Assembly: GCF_014395425.1 (NCBI RefSeq)
Contig: NZ_CP060711.1
Location: forward strand, 372,001-436,000
DNA length: 64,000 bases
DNA from: Thermomonas brevis
GTDB taxonomy: Bacteria > Pseudomonadota > Gammaproteobacteria > Xanthomonadales > Xanthomonadaceae
Direction of reading: 5' to 3'
Part shown: one piece after another, positions 23,583-32,930 of the stretch
Layout of the letters: each line of letters starts with the position of its first letter
How positions within the stretch are numbered: the first letter of the stretch is position 1
Program-made: the position numbers and the translations under genes
The notes under the pieces: model-generated
Seen by the model: only the letters and a program-made list of their open reading frames with translations
Database searches by the model: none
What the model was told of the DNA's origin: nothing

Positions 23583-23699
23583 TGGGGTGGATGAAAGCAG
23601 GCGGAAGCCGGGGCAGCCATGCGCCCGCCCCAAGCGGTTTCACGGAAAGGCTCCCCACGCGGCTGCCGTCCCTTCGGCGGCCGTTATCTTTTCTTTACA

Positions 23700-23718
23700 A
23701 ATGCGAATGAGTTTCATT
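23700..23718 (+). promoter_or_regulatory. Fur-box-like site upstream of siderophore locus
   Basis: AATGCGAATGAGTTTCATT is an imperfect 19-bp palindrome (AATG...CATT ends) in an AT-rich island, 69 nt before the TonB receptor start. It resembles gammaproteobacterial Fur operators. It supports iron-repressed expression of the whole receptor-esterase-receptor-reductase cluster; identity is inferred. Confidence 0.6.
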
Positions 23719-23787
23719 TAATACCGCGATGTTGCGCCGCCGCATCCGCTGGCGCCCCGCTTTCCCCACACCCCCGCAGAGGCTCCC

Positions 23788-26016
23788 ATGTCCGCCACCT
23801 CCCGCTTCCTGCCCGTCCGCAGGCGCTCCCCGCTTGCCCTCGCCGTGATCGCCGCGCTGCTCGCGCCGGCGCTGGCCGCCGCCCAGAGCTCCGCCCCGCA
23901 GGCCAGCGACCGGACCCCGGTCGATCTGGACAAGGTGCAGGTCAACGCCTACCGCACCACCAGCCACACCTCCGGCGCGACCAAGACCGACGCCGCGGTG
24001 GCCGAGACGCCGCAGTCGGTCTCGGTGATCGCCCGCGACGAGCTGGACGCGCGCGGCGTGCAGAACCTCAACGAGGCGATGCGCTACGTGGCCGGCGTGG
24101 CGCTGGAGAGCAGCGGCATCGACAACCGCGTGGACGACTTCCGCGTCCGCGGCTACGACGCCGGCAGCTGGAGCAACAACGTCACCGTGGACGGCATGCG
24201 CGCCCCGCAGGGCAGCCAGTGGAACCGCACGATGGTGGACAGCTGGAACCTGGAGCGCGTCGAAGTGCTGAAGGGCCCGTCGGCGGTGATGTACGGTCAG
24301 GTGGCGCCGGGCGGCATGGTCAACCAGGTCAGCAAGACGCCGGAGCCGGGCCAGGCGCAGGTAGCGCGCGTGGGCATCGACGGCAACGGCCAGTACAGCG
24401 CCGCCTTCGACCTCGGCACCGGCAGCGACGACCGCCGCCACCTGCTCCGCCTGGTCGGCCTGTACCGCGACGGCCAGACCCAGATCGACCACACCGAACA
24501 GCAGCACTGGTTTCTCGCCCCTAGCTACACCCTGCAGCTCGCCGAGCGCACCCGTCTGACCCTGCTCGGCCTGTACCAGCGCGACGACGGCGGCTCCACC
24601 TACCAGTTCCTGCCGATGGACGGCACGCTGCGGCCCACCGCGTACGGGCGGATGAAGAACAGCACCTTCATCGGCGAGCCGGGCTGGAACACCTTCGACC
24701 GCACCGTCTGGGCCGCCGGCTGGCTGTTCGAGCACGGCTTCAACGAGCACTGGACGCTGGCCCAGAGCGCGCGCCACACCCACGTGGATTCGCTGTTCCG
24801 CACGGTGGTGACCAACGGCAAGCTCAATCCCGACGGCCGCACCCAGAAGCGCCGCGCCACCTGGGGCGAAGGCGATTCCGACGGCAAGACCGTCGACACG
24901 CGCCTGACCGGCAAGTTCGCCATCGGCGCGGCCAGGCACACCGTGCTGCTGGGCGTGGACTGGCAGAAAGCCGACTGGCAGGGCGCGCGCGGCGCGATGC
25001 GCGATCCGCTGCCGATCGACATCTTCAATCCGGTCTACAGCGACTACGTGCCGGTCACCAATAGCATCGGCTACAGCGGCGGCGTCAACGAGCAGACCGG
25101 CGCCTATCTGCAGGACCAGATCGCGCTGGACAACTGGCGCTTCACCCTCGGCGGCCGCTACGACCGCACCGACGACGACACCTTCACCCGCAGCTACAAC
25201 GCGCTGACCGGCGTCTACGGCCCGGTGGTGCCCACCAAGGTGAAGAACAGCGCCTTCACCGGCAACGCCGGCGTGCTGTACGCGGCCGGCAACGGGCTGT
25301 CGCCGTACCTGAGCTACGCCGAATCGTTCCAGCCGGCCGGCAGCAACACCAACCAGAGCCACGACCGCACTCCGTTCGACCCGATCACCGGCAAGCAGTG
25401 GGAAGGCGGCGTGAAGTACCAGCCGGCCGGCTTCGACGGCCTGCTCACCCTGTCGGTCTTCGATCTGCGCCAGCAGAACATGCTGATCGACGATCCCGAC
25501 GCCACCCACATGGACTGCGGCGCCGCCGGCAACGGCCGCTGCCAGGTGCAGGCGGGCGAAGGCCGGGTGCGCGGCGTGGAGCTGGAGGCGCGGGTGACGC
25601 CGCTGGACGGCTTCAGCGTGATCGGCGCGGCCTCGCGGATGGATTCCGAACTGACCCGCGCCAACGCCGCCGTGCAGGGCAAGCAACTGGCGATGGTGCC
25701 GGACTGGACCACCGCGCTGTGGGCCGACTACACCTTCCAGGCCGGCGCGCTGTCGGGCCTGAGCCTCGCCGCCGGCGTGCGCTACAACGGCGAAAGCTAT
25801 GGCGACACCGCCAACCTGTACCGGATCCCGTCGTACTCGCTGTGGGACGCGGCGCTCCGCTACGACCTCGGCCGCCACGGCGCGGTGTCCACGCAGCTGT
25901 CGCTCAACGTCAGCAACCTGGCCGACAAGACCTTCGTGTCCACGTGCAGCGGCGAGTCCTCGTGCTTCTACGGCACCGGCCGCACCCTCACCGCCACCGC
26001 GCGGTTCAGCTGGTGA
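23788..26016 (+). CDS. TonB-dependent siderophore receptor (first)
   Basis: A 742-residue outer-membrane receptor. Signal peptide ends near ALAAAQ (about 33). The plug domain has ETPQSVSVIARDELDARGV, VDGMRAPQG and VEVLKGPSAVMYGQVAPGGMVN, and the beta-barrel ends ATARFSW with the terminal aromatic. The pattern is that of the FhuA/FoxA-like ferric siderophore receptor family. A LDKVQVNAYR segment just after the signal is a possible TonB-box region. The TGA overlaps the GTG start of the esterase gene. The substrate cannot be read directly, but the linked Fes/IroE-type esterase points to a ferric catecholate. Confidence 0.92.
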   Translation: MSATSRFLPVRRRSPLALAVIAALLAPALAAAQSSAPQASDRTPVDLDKVQVNAYRTTSHTSGATKTDAAVAETPQSVSVIARDELDARGVQNLNEAMRYVAGVALESSGIDNRVDDFRVRGYDAGSWSNNVTVDGMRAPQGSQWNRTMVDSWNLERVEVLKGPSAVMYGQVAPGGMVNQVSKTPEPGQAQVARVGIDGNGQYSAAFDLGTGSDDRRHLLRLVGLYRDGQTQIDHTEQQHWFLAPSYTLQLAERTRLTLLGLYQRDDGGSTYQFLPMDGTLRPTAYGRMKNSTFIGEPGWNTFDRTVWAAGWLFEHGFNEHWTLAQSARHTHVDSLFRTVVTNGKLNPDGRTQKRRATWGEGDSDGKTVDTRLTGKFAIGAARHTVLLGVDWQKADWQGARGAMRDPLPIDIFNPVYSDYVPVTNSIGYSGGVNEQTGAYLQDQIALDNWRFTLGGRYDRTDDDTFTRSYNALTGVYGPVVPTKVKNSAFTGNAGVLYAAGNGLSPYLSYAESFQPAGSNTNQSHDRTPFDPITGKQWEGGVKYQPAGFDGLLTLSVFDLRQQNMLIDDPDATHMDCGAAGNGRCQVQAGEGRVRGVELEARVTPLDGFSVIGAASRMDSELTRANAAVQGKQLAMVPDWTTALWADYTFQAGALSGLSLAAGVRYNGESYGDTANLYRIPSYSLWDAALRYDLGRHGAVSTQLSLNVSNLADKTFVSTCSGESSCFYGTGRTLTATARFSW

Positions 26017-28535
26017 AGCGGCTCGCGCTGCTCCTGTTGGCGCTGTGGCTGGCCCTGCCGGCCGCGGCGCAGCCGGACCTGTCGCGCCGGATCGGCGCCA
26101 CCGTGGCCGATACCGGCGCGCCGGGCTACCGCTTCGAGCAGTTCCGGCTGGACTCGGCGGACGGCCAGCGCCACTACCGCATCCGGGTGGCGCTGCCCGT
26201 TGCCACGCCGCCGGCCAACGGCTTCGCCTCGGTCTGGCTGCTGGACGGCAACGCCGCGCTGATGGAGCTGCGCGCCGAACAGTTCGCGCGCTGGTCGAAA
26301 GCGCCATCGCCGCCGGTGCTGGTGTTCCTGTCCTACGACAACGACCTGCGGATCGACGCCGACGCCCGCGCGTTCGACTACACCCCGCGCCGGCCCGGCG
26401 GCGAGGACGCGCAGCTCGACCCGCTGGGCGGACGTCGCAACGGCGGCGCGGACGCCTTCCTCGACCTGATCGAACGGAAGATCGCGCCGAAGGTCGCCGC
26501 GCTGGCGAAGCTCGATCCCGCGCGGCGCACGCTGTGGGGCCATTCCTACGGCGGCGTGCTGGCGCTGCACGCGCTGCTGACGCGGCCGGCGATGTTCGAT
26601 GCCTATGCGGCAGCCGATCCCTCGCTGTGGTGGGGCGACGGCCACCTGCTGCGCGAAACCGACACCTTGCCGGCCTGGCCCGTGCCGCGTCCGCACCTGC
26701 TGCTGTGGACAGGCACGTCCGATGCGTCGCCGCAAGCGCCGACGAAGACGACAACGCCCGCATCGCCACAGCGCGATCCAACCCAGCTCGACCGCATGCG
26801 CCGCGCGCGCGCCAGCGTGCCCGCGGATGCGCCCGAGCGCCTTGCCGGACGCCTGCGCGCCAGCGGCTTGACCGTGGACGCGCACTCCCTGCCCGGCCTC
26901 GCCCACGGACAGACGCTGGGCGCGTCGCTGCTGACGCTGCTGGACGACATCGCCAACACTGCCGCGCCGGTGCTGGACGCAAACGGAACGCTGACCACCG
27001 GCGCAACGCAGGCGCATCGTCTCGCCCTGCATCGCGGCGACTACGTGGCCGGCATGCTGGAGGCGCAGGCCGATGCCCCCAGCCTGTGGCTGGACGATCC
27101 GCAGGGCCGGCCGTTGCGCCGGCTGCTCGAAGCCGGTCGCCCGAACGACTTCCTGTTCGTGGCCGACCGCGACGGCACCTACGCATTGCGCGCCCGCGCC
27201 GACCAGGGCCCGACGCGCTACCGGCTGCGGATCGAACGCGTGCTGCCGGCGTCGCAGCAGCGCACCGTCGAAGCGCCATTGCGCAGCCCGCGCCTGCGGG
27301 CGCTGCGCGCGCAGCTGCAAGCCGGCGGCGATACGCAGGCGTTCTGGGAGCAGATCGCCAGGGAAGGCGCTCCTCTGATCGAACAGGTGGACGGCGCGAC
27401 GCTGGTCACCTTCGTGTGGCGCGGCGCGCGCAGCAACGTGCGCCTGTTCGCCGCACCCACCGGCGACATGGAGGAATTGCAGCGGCTGGACGGCAGCGAC
27501 GTCTGGTACGGCAGCTACGCGATCCCCGCCGACACCCGCATGTCCTACCAGCTCGCACCGGACGTGCCGCAGCTGCCCGAAGGCGGACGCGCCGCGCGCC
27601 GCGCGGTGCTGGCGACGCTGCGGCGCGACCCGCTCAACCCGCGCTTCTGGCCGGCCGACGCGCCGGACGAGTTCGCCCGCGAATCCATCCTCGAACTGCC
27701 GGACGCGCCCGCGCAGCGCGCCGTGCAGCCGGCCGGCCATCCCGCCGGCCGCATCGAGCGCCTGCGCCTGGCAAGCGCGCGCCTCGGCAACACCCGCGCC
27801 ATCGACCTGTATCGCTCACCCGGCTACCGCGCCGGCGATCCGCGCAACGCGCTGCTGGTGGTGTTCGACGGCCGCGACTACCAGGACGCGATCCCCACCC
27901 CGCTGATCCTCGACAATCTGCACGCGGAAGGCGCGATCCCGCCGGTGCTGGCGGTGTTCGTCGCCAATCCCGACGCCGAGGCGCGGGCGCGCGAACTGCC
28001 CTGCAATCCGGCGTTCGGCGACTTCCTCGCCGACGAGCTGCTGCCGTTCGTCGAAGCGCGCGCCGGCGCGCTGCCGCCCGCCGCGCGCACCGTGCTGGCC
28101 GGCGCCAGCTACGGCGGGCTGGCCTCGGCCTGCGTGGCGCTCCAGCATCCGCAGCGCTTCGGCAATGTGCTCAGCCAGTCCGGCTCGTTCTGGTGGGCGC
28201 CCGACGCCGCGTCCGGGCAGCCGCAGGAAGAACCGGAATGGCTGACCCGCCGCTATGCCGAAGCGTCGCGCCAACCGATCCGCTTCTGGCTGGAAGCCGG
28301 CCGCTTCGAGACCGGCCACGGCCAGAGCGGCATCCTCGAAACCAACCGCCACCTGCGCGACGTGCTGCGCGCGAAAGGCTACGCCGTGGCGCACCGCGAA
28401 TTCTCCGGCGGCCACGACTGGTACCACTGGCGCGGCGGCCTCGCCGACGGCATCGCCGCCCTGCTTTCCCCTTCGACCTTCCCCGACACCGCGCCCGCCG
28501 CCGCCAGCGCCATTTCCAGCCACAAGGACGACTGA
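26013..28535 (+). CDS. Exported IroE-Fes type double siderophore esterase fusion
   Basis: An 840-residue protein with a signal peptide (1-20). Residues about 30-315 form an IroE-like alpha/beta hydrolase: nucleophile Ser178 in LWGHSYGGVLALHALL, ADPSLWWGDG and a candidate His298. Residues about 330-410 are a beta-rich PPC-like segment. Residues about 440-530 match the N-terminal domain of enterobactin esterase Fes (FWEQIAREGAPLIEQV, LVTFVWRGA). Residues about 585-820 are the Fes hydrolase: Ser699 in LAGASYGGLASA, LSQSGSFWWAP and His801 in SGGHDWYHW. Both nucleophile elbows look intact. The predicted job is periplasmic hydrolysis of tris-catecholate siderophores. GTG start overlapping the receptor stop (GTGA); the second receptor begins 1 nt after its stop. 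Confidence 0.88.
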   Translation: MKRLALLLLALWLALPAAAQPDLSRRIGATVADTGAPGYRFEQFRLDSADGQRHYRIRVALPVATPPANGFASVWLLDGNAALMELRAEQFARWSKAPSPPVLVFLSYDNDLRIDADARAFDYTPRRPGGEDAQLDPLGGRRNGGADAFLDLIERKIAPKVAALAKLDPARRTLWGHSYGGVLALHALLTRPAMFDAYAAADPSLWWGDGHLLRETDTLPAWPVPRPHLLLWTGTSDASPQAPTKTTTPASPQRDPTQLDRMRRARASVPADAPERLAGRLRASGLTVDAHSLPGLAHGQTLGASLLTLLDDIANTAAPVLDANGTLTTGATQAHRLALHRGDYVAGMLEAQADAPSLWLDDPQGRPLRRLLEAGRPNDFLFVADRDGTYALRARADQGPTRYRLRIERVLPASQQRTVEAPLRSPRLRALRAQLQAGGDTQAFWEQIAREGAPLIEQVDGATLVTFVWRGARSNVRLFAAPTGDMEELQRLDGSDVWYGSYAIPADTRMSYQLAPDVPQLPEGGRAARRAVLATLRRDPLNPRFWPADAPDEFARESILELPDAPAQRAVQPAGHPAGRIERLRLASARLGNTRAIDLYRSPGYRAGDPRNALLVVFDGRDYQDAIPTPLILDNLHAEGAIPPVLAVFVANPDAEARARELPCNPAFGDFLADELLPFVEARAGALPPAARTVLAGASYGGLASACVALQHPQRFGNVLSQSGSFWWAPDAASGQPQEEPEWLTRRYAEASRQPIRFWLEAGRFETGHGQSGILETNRHLRDVLRAKGYAVAHREFSGGHDWYHWRGGLADGIAALLSPSTFPDTAPAAASAISSHKDD

Positions 28536-28536
28536 A

Positions 28537-30675
28537 ATGCGCATTTCCACGACGCGGGCGACGCTGGCACTGGCCATCGCCCTGTCCCTCTCCGCCGCCG
28601 CCCACGCCCAGCAGCAGGACAGCCCCGACGGCGCCAGGCCGAAAGCCAAGGAACTCGACGCCGTGGTCGTGCAGGGCGTGCGCATCCAGGGCTATGCCGC
28701 GCCGGTCACCAACGTCGGCCTGAAGCTGCCGGTCAGCCAGCGCGAAACGCCGCAGTCGGTCAGCGTGCTGACCCGCCCGCTGCTGGAAGACCTCGCCGTG
28801 GACAGCCTCGACGAAGCCATCCTGTTCGTGCCCGGCGTGGCCATGCGCCAGTACGACAGCGTCGATACCCAGTACATCTCGCGCGGCTTCGAGATCACCA
28901 ACTACCAGCTTGACGGCCTGCCGGCCACGCTGGGCCGCGCCAAGCCGCGGCTGGCGATGTACGACCGCATCGAAGTGCTGCGCGGCGCCGCCGGCCTGCT
29001 CAACGGCGCGGGCGAACCCGGCGGCGCGATCAACCTGGTGCGCAAGCGGCCGACCCGCGAGTTCGCCGCCAGCGCGGGCTTCAACCTCGGCTCGTGGGAT
29101 CGCACGCTGGTGCAAGGCGACATCGGCGGCCCGCTGACCGACGACGGCCGCGTGCGCGGCCGCGCGGTGGTCGAACACGAGGACAAGGACCTGTTCCAGC
29201 GCGGCGGCGATTACCGCTACACGCTGGGTTACGGCATCCTCGAAACCGACGTCTCCGCCAACGGCACTCTCAGCCTCGGCGCCAGCTTCGAGAAGCTCAA
29301 GACCACGCCGGTCTGGAGCGGCCTGCCGCGCTACAGCGACGGCCGCGCGCTCGACCTGCCGCGCCGCGCCTCGCTGGAACCGGCGTGGCAGGACATCGTC
29401 ACCGAGAACAGGCAGCTGTTCGCCGAACTCGACCAGGGCTTGAACGAGGACTGGCGCCTGCGCGTCTCGGCGCAGTACGCGCAGGAGGACGGCCGCTTCC
29501 TGGTCGCCAACGGCTGGGGCGCGATCGATCCGCAGACCGGCGCCGGCTGGTCGATCACGCCGACCCTGCAAGGCCGCGACTACGGCAACCGCAGCCTCGA
29601 CGCCGCCGTGCTCGGCAGCTTCGCCGCCTGGGGCAGCCGCCACGAGCTGATCGCCGGCGTCGGCTGGAACCGCAGCCGCACCGATGCCGACGGCCACGAC
29701 TTCGCCGACAGCTGGGCCATCGGCGACGTGCACGCCTTCGATCCCTACGCCGCGCCGCGCCCGACCCAGCCGCTGCCCGACACCTGGTGGAGCGGCCGCT
29801 ACACCACCACCCAGCGCGGCGCCTACGCGATGCTGCGCCTGCATCCGGGCGAACGCCTGACCGCCCTGCTCGGCGCGCGCTACAGCCGCTGGCAGGACGA
29901 CGGCCTGGAGCTCATCCCGGTGCGCTACGTCAGCTCCGACTACGGCGACAGCCACCTCGGTGGCTACGGCGGGCTGGTGTTCGACGTCAGCAGCAGTTGG
30001 TCGCTGTATGCCAGCTACGCCGACATCTTCCAGCCGCAGAGCGAACGCTCCACCCAGGGCCAGATGCCGCCGATGCGCGGCGTGGCGCTGGAAGGCGGCC
30101 TCAAGGGCGAATGGCGCGACGGCGCGCTGAACGCCTCGTTCGCGCTGTTCGACATCCGCCAGAAGGATCGCGCCCAGCTGGACGCCTCGCAACTGCCGGG
30201 CGCCTGCAACGGCGACACCTGCTATCTCGCGCAGGGCGAGGTGAAAAGCCAGGGCTTCGAGGCCACCGTCGCCGGCCGCCTCGCCGAAGGCGTGGATGTC
30301 AGCGCCGGCTACACCTGGAACAGGCAGACCTATTCGAAGGACGCCGACCTGCAGGGCCAGCCGTTCAACACGTATGCGCCCAAACAGATGGTCAAGCTCT
30401 GGGCCAGCTGGCGTCCGCCGATGGCGGAGGCGTGGTCGTTCGGCCTCGGCGCCAACTGGCAGACCGAAACCCGCGCCAGCGACGGCGCGGCGCAGCCGGC
30501 CTACGCGGTGTGGAATGCGCGCATCGGCTACCGCATCAACCAGCACTTCAACGTGTCGCTGAACGTGGACAACCTGCTCGACAAGACCTACTGGCAGACC
30601 ATCGGCCCGACCGGCTGGGGCAACTTCCGGGGCGAGCCGCGCAGCGTCACCGCCAGCGTGCGCTGGCGCTACTGA
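28537..30675 (+). CDS. TonB-dependent siderophore receptor (second)
   Basis: A 712-residue receptor with a signal peptide ending AAAHAQ (about 25). Plug motifs are ETPQSVSVLTRPLLEDLAVDSLDEA, YQLDGLPATLG, IEVLRGAAGLLNGAGEPGGAINL and VRKRPT; the barrel ends TASVRWRY. It resembles FpvA/FhuE-type ferric siderophore receptors and is clearly different from the first receptor. The start ATG is 1 nt after the esterase stop, so the three genes form one transcription unit. Expected substrate is a ferric siderophore, possibly one shared with or processed by the esterase. Confidence 0.92.
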   Translation: MRISTTRATLALAIALSLSAAAHAQQQDSPDGARPKAKELDAVVVQGVRIQGYAAPVTNVGLKLPVSQRETPQSVSVLTRPLLEDLAVDSLDEAILFVPGVAMRQYDSVDTQYISRGFEITNYQLDGLPATLGRAKPRLAMYDRIEVLRGAAGLLNGAGEPGGAINLVRKRPTREFAASAGFNLGSWDRTLVQGDIGGPLTDDGRVRGRAVVEHEDKDLFQRGGDYRYTLGYGILETDVSANGTLSLGASFEKLKTTPVWSGLPRYSDGRALDLPRRASLEPAWQDIVTENRQLFAELDQGLNEDWRLRVSAQYAQEDGRFLVANGWGAIDPQTGAGWSITPTLQGRDYGNRSLDAAVLGSFAAWGSRHELIAGVGWNRSRTDADGHDFADSWAIGDVHAFDPYAAPRPTQPLPDTWWSGRYTTTQRGAYAMLRLHPGERLTALLGARYSRWQDDGLELIPVRYVSSDYGDSHLGGYGGLVFDVSSSWSLYASYADIFQPQSERSTQGQMPPMRGVALEGGLKGEWRDGALNASFALFDIRQKDRAQLDASQLPGACNGDTCYLAQGEVKSQGFEATVAGRLAEGVDVSAGYTWNRQTYSKDADLQGQPFNTYAPKQMVKLWASWRPPMAEAWSFGLGANWQTETRASDGAAQPAYAVWNARIGYRINQHFNVSLNVDNLLDKTYWQTIGPTGWGNFRGEPRSVTASVRWRY

Positions 30676-30689
30676 CCGGAACCGAGGCC

Positions 30690-30758
30690 ATGTCCGATCC
30701 GCACCGTCCCGCTCCGCCCGCTGTCCGCGCCCGCCGCCCCGAAGGAGCGCGCGCGTGA
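30690..30758 (+). CDS. Possible 22-residue leader peptide or remnant ORF
   Basis: A short ORF, MSDPHRPAPPAVRARRPEGARA, starting at an ATG 14 nt after the receptor stop, with GAGG-like purines upstream. Its TGA overlaps the GTG of the next gene, so it could serve as a translational coupler. No family is recognisable; it may be chance or the remnant of a larger small protein. Confidence 0.3.
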   Translation: MSDPHRPAPPAVRARRPEGARA

Positions 30759-31042
30759 CCGCCGGCCTCGCCGTCGGCGCCGCCCTGCTGTGCCTGCTCG
30801 GTGCGCTGCTGCTCTACCTGGCCTCGCCGCAGCAGCAGCTGCGCGCGGCCGGGCCATGGCCGGCGCGCAGGCCGTGGTGGCCGGGCATCGCCTGCCTGCT
30901 GCTCTCGCTGCTGTTGTTCCTTCAGGTGCTGGCGCCGGTGGAGGCGGTGGCGGGCTGGAGCGTGCTGGCGATGCTGGTCTGGTCGCTGCTGCCCTTCCTC
31001 GGCGCATGGCGCGCCCGCGTGCGCGCCGGGAGGACGGCATGA
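30755..31042 (+). CDS. DUF3325-like small membrane protein of iron-uptake locus
   Basis: A 95-residue protein with three hydrophobic segments (about 3-22, 44-62 and 68-86) and basic loops. Such DUF3325 proteins commonly accompany PepSY-TM reductases and TonB siderophore receptors; their function is unknown. GTG start at 30755 overlaps a 22-codon ORF; the TGA overlaps the next ATG. The family call is by eye from topology and neighbourhood. Confidence 0.65.
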   Translation: MTAGLAVGAALLCLLGALLLYLASPQQQLRAAGPWPARRPWWPGIACLLLSLLLFLQVLAPVEAVAGWSVLAMLVWSLLPFLGAWRARVRAGRTA

Positions 31043-31341
31043 GTACGGAACGCGTGCGCCTGCAAAGCCGCCACTGGTTCGGCAAGACGCTGGCCGGCAC
31101 GGTGCTGGGCTTCGGCCTGGCGCTAGCGCTGTCGGGACTGTTCGCCTGGCTGGGCCCGGACGGCATCGACGGCGGCGGCGGCAAGGTGCAATTCAACATG
31201 TGGCTGATCGCGCCGCTGTGGGCCGGCGTGCTGTCCCTCGTCTACCTGTTCCGCACGCCGTTGCGCGCCTGGCTGTGGCTGGGCGCGGCCAACGCATCGG
31301 CGTTCGGGCTGCTGTGGGCCGTGCGCCTGTCGATGAGTTGA
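31039..31341 (+). CDS. Small membrane protein of PepSY-linked iron-uptake locus
   Basis: A 100-residue protein with about three membrane segments (HWFGKTLAGTVLGFGLALALSG region, FNMWLIAPLWAGVLSLVYLF region and WLWLGAANASAFGLLWAV region). It belongs to the group often labelled iron transporter or iron uptake protein that neighbours PepSY-TM reductases. Function unknown. Overlaps the upstream gene by 4 nt and ends 11 nt before the PepSY gene. Confidence 0.65.
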   Translation: MSTERVRLQSRHWFGKTLAGTVLGFGLALALSGLFAWLGPDGIDGGGGKVQFNMWLIAPLWAGVLSLVYLFRTPLRAWLWLGAANASAFGLLWAVRLSMS

Positions 31342-31352
31342 GGAACCCCCGC

Positions 31353-32930
31353 ATGAACATCCGCAGCGACATCGTCAAGGTCTACAAGGACGTGCACATC
31401 TGGATCGGCATCGTCAGCGGGCTGATGCTATTCGTCGCGTTCTATGCCGGCGCGATCACCATGTTCGAAAAGCCCCTGGAGCGCTGGGCGACGCCGCCGT
31501 CCGCGCTGTCCGCCCCGCCGCCGCTGCAACGCGCCGACGCGCTGGTGGACGCGGTGCTGGCCCAGCAGCCGAAGGCAGCCGCGCGCTGGTTCGTCTCGGT
31601 GCGGCCGACCGCCGACCAGCCGGCGCGCGTCTATTGGCAGGAACGCGGCAAGGGCCGCCGCGAGTTCAAGGAATACGGCGCCAGCTTCGCCGCCGACGGC
31701 AGCTTGCAGGTGGAACCGACCCGCAAGGCCACGGTGGCGCAGTTGGTGGACACGCTGCACCAGCTGGTCGGGCTGCCGTTCCCCGATGCGGTGGCGCGCC
31801 CGATCATGGGCGCGGTGGCGCTGGCCTACGCGGTGGCGCTGGTGTCCGGGCTGATCGTGCTGCTGCCGACGATTGCCAAGGACGTGTTCGCGCTGCGCAT
31901 CGGCAGGAACATCAAGCGCCTGTGGCTGGATGTGCACAACGCGCTGGGCCTGTTCAGCCTGCCCTTCCACATCGTGATCGCGCTGACCAGCGTGGTGTTC
32001 GCCTTCCACGACCAGTTCTACGACGCGCAAGACGCGGTGGTCTATCCCAACGGCATCCAGTGGGGGGAGGAGGAACACGCCGTCACCCCGCCCGGCGCGG
32101 TGCCGCTGCCGGTCGCCGAACTGCTGCGCCGGGTGGAAGTGCAGCTGCCGGGCTTCGAAGTGCAGGGCTTCGGCTTCCAGCGCGAGGGCGACCGCATCGA
32201 AGCCACCGTCACCGGCCTCGACCTGCGCCACGGCACCCGCGCGCGCACCTATGCCAGTACCCACCTCGATCCGTACACCGGGCAAGTCGATCCGCACGAC
32301 CTGCCGGGCCACATGGAACCGTGGGACGAGGCGGTCAACGCCTTCTTCATGCTCCATTTCGGCAGCTTCGGCGGCAACCCGGTGCGCTGGCTGTACCTGC
32401 TGATGGGGCTGGCCGGCGCGGCGCTGTTCTACAGCGGCAACCTGCTGTGGGTGGAGTCGCGCCGGCGCAAGCGCCGGGGCGCGGAAACGCCGGTGCAGAA
32501 ACGCTCGGCATGGGCGCTCGCCTGCCTGACCGTGGGCGTGTCGCTGGGCTGCGTGGCCGGCATCTCCGCCAGCGTGGCCGCGACCAAATGGCTGCCGGCG
32601 CTGGTCGGCGATCCCAAGGCGTGGCACACCGGCATTTACTACGCGGTGTTCGCGGCGGCGGTCGGCTGGGCGTTCGTGCGCGGCGCCTCGCGCGGCGCGA
32701 TGGAGCTGCTGCGGATCGGCGCCGCGTTCACCCTGCTGATTCCGCTGTCCAGCCTGGCGGGCGCGTACGGGCTTGGCGGCGCGTGGAACCACACCGGCGG
32801 CTGGCCGGTCGACGCCACCGCGCTGGCGGCGGTGCCGGTGTTCCTGCTGCTGGCCCGCCACACCCGCCGACGCATGCGGCACGGCCACGACGACAGCGTG
32901 TGGGCGGCAAAGGCCATCCCGGCCAGCTGA
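31353..32930 (+). CDS. PepSY-TM protein, probable siderophore-iron reductase (FoxB/PiuB-like)
   Basis: A 525-residue inner-membrane protein. It starts with KVYKDVHIWIGIVSGLMLFVAFYAGAITMFE, the PepSY-associated helix with a haem-ligand-like His, followed by a periplasmic loop, LDVHNALGLFSLPFHIVIALTSVVF with further histidines, a PepSY-like domain (about 240-310), HFGSFGGNPVRWLYLLMGL and four more helices. Pseudomonas FoxB is a characterised member that reduces ferric siderophores in the periplasm. Last gene of the cluster; GAGG upstream of the ATG. Here it would reduce the iron freed or weakened by the esterase. The precise substrate is inferred. Confidence 0.85.
   Translation: MNIRSDIVKVYKDVHIWIGIVSGLMLFVAFYAGAITMFEKPLERWATPPSALSAPPPLQRADALVDAVLAQQPKAAARWFVSVRPTADQPARVYWQERGKGRREFKEYGASFAADGSLQVEPTRKATVAQLVDTLHQLVGLPFPDAVARPIMGAVALAYAVALVSGLIVLLPTIAKDVFALRIGRNIKRLWLDVHNALGLFSLPFHIVIALTSVVFAFHDQFYDAQDAVVYPNGIQWGEEEHAVTPPGAVPLPVAELLRRVEVQLPGFEVQGFGFQREGDRIEATVTGLDLRHGTRARTYASTHLDPYTGQVDPHDLPGHMEPWDEAVNAFFMLHFGSFGGNPVRWLYLLMGLAGAALFYSGNLLWVESRRRKRRGAETPVQKRSAWALACLTVGVSLGCVAGISASVAATKWLPALVGDPKAWHTGIYYAVFAAAVGWAFVRGASRGAMELLRIGAAFTLLIPLSSLAGAYGLGGAWNHTGGWPVDATALAAVPVFLLLARHTRRRMRHGHDDSVWAAKAIPAS

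Follow-up and report, generated by a model that had tools for sequence, protein, structure and literature searches.

An exported protein that joins PfeE/IroE-type and Fes-type siderophore esterases in a probable iron-uptake operon of Thermomonas brevis

The esterase PfeE of Pseudomonas aeruginosa is described as cleaving ferric enterobactin in the periplasm, so that the siderophore stays out of the cytoplasm, and Campylobacter Cee is described as acting likewise (PMC8001512). In the account given for Salmonella, IroE is a periplasmic enzyme that converts the iron-free siderophore to its linear trimer, Fes is a cytoplasmic enzyme that favours the iron-loaded form and continues to the dimer and monomer, IroD is also cytoplasmic, and enterobactin and salmochelin are both hydrolysed by Fes-type and IroE-type esterases (PMC7403778). 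Here we analyse the window, a 64,000 bp stretch of the Thermomonas brevis genome (contig NZ_CP060711.1, positions 372,001 to 436,000), in which one gene encodes both kinds of esterase in a single exported protein of 840 residues. On balance we read its surroundings as a Fur-regulated operon for the use of xenosiderophores, in which two neighbouring exported-esterase genes have been fused and periplasmic hydrolysis would be followed by reduction. Two enzymes that are usually discussed in different compartments are thus covalently linked by nature, and an unfused counterpart with the same gene order exists.

A preliminary description, made from the DNA letters alone, saw here a protein with a signal peptide and two complete-looking esterase domains; Pfam, NCBIfam, PDB matches and a structure model all agree with it. 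Within the 840 residues Pfam detects two stretches of PF00756 and a single one of PF11806, which excludes the presence of only one hydrolase. The first half matches PfeE (6gi0) over residues 32-310 (phmmer E 2.5e-60) and is 50% identical to it across 254 residues in the structural alignment; its nearest solved relative is thus of the PfeE/IroE class, in which we place it, and the GxSxGG nucleophile motif and the catalytic His are both present. A profile scan of the whole genome places the match of this half above cut-off at G000:C1:398166-398681; a second, distant IroE-like esterase (31% identical to the IroE half) lies at G000:C1:3374326-3374931. In the second half PF11806 is followed by PF00756, residues 436-821 are an enterochelin esterase by NCBIfam NF007758 (272.8 bits; curated cut-off 222), and residues 487-820 match Fes in the PDB (E 1.9e-37). 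The model of the fusion superposes on PfeE and on Fes, with a predicted template modelling score of 0.61 that leaves the relative placement of the domains uncertain, and comparison of whole-model folds hardly probes the central beta domain. The signal peptide is predicted from the sequence and a hydropathy heuristic, and since cytoplasmic Fes would lack one, the second half is classed as an exported Fes-type unit.

Both halves look functional. The nucleophiles named in the preliminary description, Ser178 of the IroE-like and Ser699 of the Fes-like half, are present in 121/121 and 117/117 aligned rows, and the catalytic His is kept in both (His298 in 116/121, the others being three gaps and two Arg; His801 in 117/117). 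Glu766 is likewise found in 117/117 Fes-type rows, a set that leaves out P0002, P0003, P0020 and P0075, and from its position after a late strand it is probably the catalytic acid of this half; no third catalytic residue was identified in the IroE half. Compared with its homolog on a Thermomonas contig (L054, below), the fusion gene of the window has a ratio of nonsynonymous to synonymous substitution (Nei-Gojobori) of 0.30 in the IroE half and 0.386 in the beta part, while the N-terminal Fes domain has 0.243 and the C-terminal one 0.235. These ratios come from this one pair (727 codons, 79.4% identical; the last domain up to residue 733, near the end of the L054 contig), in which both halves appear to be under purifying selection.

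The IroE half resembles PfeE in its Ser and His, its signal peptide and the position of its gene beside that of a TonB receptor, as in pfeE-pfeA (PMC8001512). PfeE, however, stands alone (a 282-residue PDB chain), whereas its counterpart in T. brevis is joined to a Fes unit, and the neighbouring receptor is of the FetA/FoxA/FhuA type. PfeA is a FepA-type receptor. The Fes half resembles the Fes structures 3mga, 3c87 and 2b20, but E. coli Fes is described as cytoplasmic (PMC8001512) and is about 400 residues long, and the unit studied here is exported and has an extra beta domain. It belongs to a subfamily of about 535 residues annotated as "enterochelin esterase" in Stenotrophomonas, Achromobacter, Massilia and Cupriavidus, whose listed stand-alone members are 45-75% identical and share the arrangement of beta domain plus Fes unit, but lack an IroE-type domain. 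By a rough heuristic (a hydrophobic N-terminus and an AxA-like site), 104 of the 116 listed stand-alone Fes-like hits have a signal-like N-terminus, and 24/116 random internal windows pass the same test. The contrast with cytoplasmic Fes drawn in the preliminary description was therefore misplaced. We rejected the idea that a cytoplasmic Fes had been moved to the periplasm, because most of the listed relatives have a signal-like N-terminus and the unfused Fes of Stenotrophomonas daejeonensis starts with a signal peptide. The central beta segment of the fusion does lie between the two halves; the aligned stand-alone relatives nevertheless already carry this domain N-terminal to the Fes unit (in a checked 39-row alignment; a 78-row version was dropped because Fes-only rows fell on the IroE half), so a linker invented for the fusion was also rejected. 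The PPC-like appearance of the segment is a resemblance noted in the preliminary description; at E 1, Pfam returned no PPC match for the fusion protein, nor for any of five stand-alone relatives. As the Fes subfamily is mostly exported, beta domain included, neither partner need have changed compartment. The fusion welds together two neighbouring enzymes, each already exported on its own in relatives, and so refines known iron uptake and opens no new route.

In a survey of 398 genomes of the phylum, 21, including that of the window, had a match to P0005 at 1e-30, and many of these matches are of the shorter Fes type. Six exported-Fes loci (L043, L100-L104) were examined closely, and in four of them a receptor lies next to or close to Fes; the best NCBIfam match is CirA in L043, L103 and L104 and Fiu for one of the two in L100, all below the equivalog cut-offs, and at the cut-off applied the second L100 receptor is matched only by the general model for siderophore receptors. 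No receptor beside Fes was picked out by open reading frame (ORF) comparison in L101 (disturbed by a shadow ORF) or L102. L103 also holds a PepSY gene. In this exported subfamily, often found near TonB receptors, the annotation "Fes" does not imply a cytoplasmic step; no experimental paper on it was found in the literature searched. Three genomes, G930 (L077/L095), G994 (L079/L097) and G1018 (L080/L099), carry both a longer exported-type Fes and a shorter one at a distance of about 8 to 55 kb; the longer match spans one TGA in G930 and in G994.

The unfused counterpart is found in S. daejeonensis (L061), where the order is first TonB-dependent receptor (TBDT1), IroE, beta-Fes, second receptor (TBDT2), small membrane protein and PepSY, as in the window except that the esterases are separate. 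Only 19 bp separate the IroE stop from the Fes start, and this Fes begins with what by eye is its own signal peptide, so that loss of the IroE stop and of the second signal peptide in such a pair would give the fusion. Adjoining Fes-type and IroE-type genes are also seen in L098, which seems to be an iro cluster. In an iroD-iroE pair, however, there are two genes with the Fes-type one first and IroD is described as cytoplasmic (PMC7403778), whereas here the IroE-type part comes first and the whole is fused and exported. We compared 16 distinct loci (20 entries, four of them duplicated), of which 15 carry IroE. A TBDT1 homolog (at least 62% identical) lies directly upstream of IroE in 13/15, a PepSY gene (at least 57% identical) lies downstream in ten, and Fes is present in two, unfused in S. 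daejeonensis and fused in KLAP37; because the loci were best-scoring hits, some on short contigs, these proportions are no fair sample. At L049 (G233) the TBDT1 homolog is divided over two reading frames, and the IroE and PepSY matches occupy one frame each. A midpoint-rooted tree built from 39 Fes units places the three fusions on a single branch (support 100/97) beside four unfused sequences, one of them from S. daejeonensis, which is consistent with a single origin of the fusion. It is likely that a TBDT1-IroE-PepSY operon gained a Fes-TBDT2 cassette and that the esterases were fused later.

Such a history does not by itself require a benefit, and it is quite conceivable, if somewhat short of an even chance, that a deletion neutrally joined two co-transcribed exported esterases with equal amounts of the two as the most that was gained. 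The closely spaced S. daejeonensis pair with its identical order, and the very small number of records that carry the fusion, in keeping with one origin, would fit such an event; that the fusion persists, both halves being under constraint, in sequences that have diverged to 79% identity argues against it.

The GTG start of the fusion gene overlaps the TBDT1 stop by 4 bp (GTGA), and the TBDT2 gene begins 1 bp past its own stop (Table 1). The best PDB match of TBDT1 is the enantio-pyochelin receptor FetA (426 bits), followed by FoxA and FhuA, and that of TBDT2 is the pyochelin receptor FptA (432 bits), followed by FauA and FhuE. NCBIfam agrees (TBDT1 497.5 bits with FhuA, TBDT2 383.8 with FauA; FepA models about 28 and 35 bits), with neither receptor reaching an equivalog cut-off in the receptor models. 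Downstream, the locus has the layout of PepSY_TM reductase operons, in which a TonB receptor is accompanied by a PepSY_TM protein and a small membrane protein; the PepSY protein has no sequence match in the PDB. The PepSY_TM proteins FoxB, FhuB and HiuB are described with demonstrated or proposed roles in reductive release, and HiuB works with the small membrane protein HiuC (PMC10866019, PMC12424826). Caulobacter HiuABC and Pseudomonas FoxA-FoxB thus resemble this locus in pairing an FhuA/FoxA-type receptor with a PepSY_TM protein, and Hiu further in its small membrane protein; hiuABC is Fur-regulated. They differ in that their substrates are hydroxamates and in that hiuABC has no esterase. 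The Stenotrophomonas maltophilia fciTABC and sbiTRS operons are described as different gene sets (PMC9047314, PMC9769818).

Table 1. Features of the fused esterase gene and its operon (positions in the window)
Feature	Position	Strand	Basis
Fused exported siderophore esterase, 840 aa	26013..28535	+	ORF, Pfam, NCBIfam, PDB match, structure model
Predicted signal peptide, residues 1-20, ends LPAAAQ	26013..26072	+	Sequence, hydropathy and AxA heuristic
PfeE/IroE-type esterase, about residues 30-316, Ser178 and His298	26100..26960	+	phmmer to 6gi0, model superposition, conservation
Eight-stranded beta domain, residues 321-411, equivalent to N-terminal domain of exported Fes subfamily	26973..27245	+	Model secondary structure, alignment
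Fes-type unit: Enterochelin_N 465-570 and esterase 588-814; Ser699, Glu766, His801	27318..28475	+	Pfam, NCBIfam, PDB, conservation, model
Fur-box-like palindrome AATGCGAATGAGTTTCATT	23700..23718	+	10/14 positions vs Fur 7-1-7 consensus
TBDT1, TonB-dependent siderophore receptor, FetA/FoxA/FhuA type	23788..26016	+	TIGR01783 above cut-off; FetA 3qlb
TBDT2, TonB-dependent siderophore receptor, FptA/FauA/FhuE type	28537..30675	+	TIGR01783 above cut-off; FptA 1xkw
Small hydrophobic protein, 95 aa, probably membrane	30755..31042	+	No Pfam match above cut-off
Small membrane protein, 100 aa, conserved beside PepSY gene	31039..31341	+	No Pfam match
PepSY_TM inner-membrane protein, probable periplasm-facing ferrisiderophore reductase	31353..32930	+	PF03929, E 2.7e-55

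The palindrome upstream of TBDT1 was scored against what we take to be the Fur 7-1-7 consensus. A pattern chosen post hoc, with at most three mismatches, has this one match in the window (0.02 expected). In 13/14 upstream regions a site scoring at least 10/14 lies at about -78 to -97, where 0-5 of 300 single-base shuffles do as well; the starts were estimated from alignments and several of the species are closely related. Two predictions overlap these genes. A minus-strand ORF at 23695-27279 (1194 aa), antisense to TBDT1 and to a large part of the fusion gene, is a GC-rich shadow and was not counted as a gene, and ARAGORN reports a tRNA-Ser(gct) at 32766-32861, within the 3' end of the PepSY gene, which is probably false or else a true overlap.

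We infer the substrate, the order of cleavage, the periplasmic location, Fur control and coupling to the PepSY protein and FeoB from these comparisons. A ferric triester siderophore would enter through the flanking TonB receptors, the PfeE/IroE-type half would open the trilactone in the periplasm, and the Fes-type half would cut the linear trimer and dimer to monomers with a weak hold on iron. Iron that is released or loosely held would then be reduced by the PepSY_TM protein together with the small membrane proteins and imported by FeoB, and entry of the siderophore into the cytoplasm would be unnecessary. That the whole job is done in the periplasm, as the preliminary description proposed, is likely on this reasoning and is not new in principle, since PfeE and Cee, the latter similar by its described function in hydrolysing ferric enterobactin there, precede it (PMC8001512). 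The fullest form of the idea, in which one periplasmic protein completely dismantles triester siderophores (or two siderophores from the two receptors), the linear product crosses the beta domain, iron passes to the PepSY reductase and FeoB, and neither a cytoplasmic esterase nor a dedicated ABC (ATP-binding cassette) importer takes part, is one we put forward only tentatively.

The genome outside the window bears on these proposals. Its sole PF11806 match is the fusion itself, and no EntE-type protein matches above cut-off (enterobactin synthesis was the one siderophore pathway looked for); with no second Fes and no such marker of enterobactin synthesis, siderophore piracy is the natural reading. 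FeoB is present above cut-off. There is one FecCD permease, in an operon (L041, G000:C1:3030000-3048000) with its own TonB receptor gene and with neighbours that we take to be a methyltransferase-like gene, a DUF364-like gene and, nearby, a molybdate-type ATPase; its cargo may be something other than a siderophore.

Several observations weigh against hydrolysis followed by reduction in a Fur-regulated operon. The one FecCD ABC system leaves room for import of a siderophore or fragment. Neither flanking receptor is of the FepA/CirA/Fiu type or belongs with FepA and PfeA. No Fes is seen in 11 of the 13 TBDT1-IroE loci in the stretch covered (which in L045 stops 1.7 kb past IroE), so the Fes half is unnecessary for the basic system. 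In the corresponding upstream region of L054, the other contig with the fusion, the best Fur-box-like site scores 9/14, and 62/300 shuffles are as good. Finally, Salmonella IroE is described as preferring the iron-free and Fes the iron-loaded siderophore, which fits a simple relay poorly (PMC7403778); PfeE, on the other hand, is described as acting on the ferric form (PMC8001512). The weak L054 site and the preference of Salmonella IroE slightly lower our confidence.

The two halves might instead serve two substrates and not two steps, each acting for its own receptor in a bispecific esterase, with TBDT1-IroE as a conserved module into which a Fes-TBDT2 cassette was inserted. The regular place of TBDT1 upstream of IroE, mostly with no Fes in the stretch covered, accords with this, as does the position of Fes next to TBDT2, seen both in the T. 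brevis operon and in S. daejeonensis (the L054 contig ends before TBDT2). Salmonella Fes-type and IroE-type enzymes, however, are both described as cleaving enterobactin and salmochelin (PMC7403778), and we regard separate substrates as doubtful. The fused and unfused pairs make a clean test case of sequential action on one siderophore versus parallel action on two.

A triscatecholate trilactone is most likely the substrate, given the likeness to PfeE and Fes and the CirA/Fiu receptors near exported Fes. The enterobactin-type substrate of the preliminary description finds no echo in the flanking receptors, whose best matches are to receptors of the pyochelin, ferrioxamine, ferrichrome and alcaligin types. 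Pyochelin is not known to contain an ester, so the substrate cannot be read from the type of receptor. Ester hydroxamates, such as the fusarinine C, triacetylfusarinine C, coprogen and vicibactin types, are a serious rival class, although we think it rather unlikely that one of them replaces the triscatecholate here.

An artefact of assembly or gene calling can be dismissed, as the host genome is one 3.44-Mb contig and the join is present in three further records. These are P0002 (96% identical, 840 aa, 5 member sequences), P0003 (79%, 837 aa, 12 member sequences) and a contig of a metagenome-assembled genome (CAUJJG010000129.1 of KLAP37, our L054), which reads in frame across the join up to its end inside the Fes part; P0003 and KLAP37 could belong to the same species. 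A search with the IroE half among 5.8 billion proteins, restricted to 462-1470 aa, gave P0002 and P0003 as the only further fusion clusters among the 8000 scored candidates, those sharing most words with the query. Among the matches listed, the fusion appears only in the window in surveys of the family (296 genomes, at most three candidates scored in each) and class (369 genomes, E 1e-30), and in the genus it is present in 2/25 genomes, the window's and G304 (KLAP37). Fes-half matches at E <1e-90 in the family survey are, among those listed, the window, S. daejeonensis and G001 only. The fusion is thus confined to very few records, and no IroE-Fes fusion is named in the titles or abstract openings of the papers listed, which is weak evidence of absence.

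Two other fused proteins were met in these searches. P0020 (874 aa), considered as a second IroE-Fes fusion, was rejected because its architecture is Fes-Fes in tandem (two stretches of PF11806 and two of PF00756), and its start has no apparent signal peptide. P0075 (776 aa) has a signal-like start and a Fes-type unit fused to a PF01497 siderophore-binding-protein-like domain; this is another type of Fes fusion, and it too suggests a role in the periplasm.
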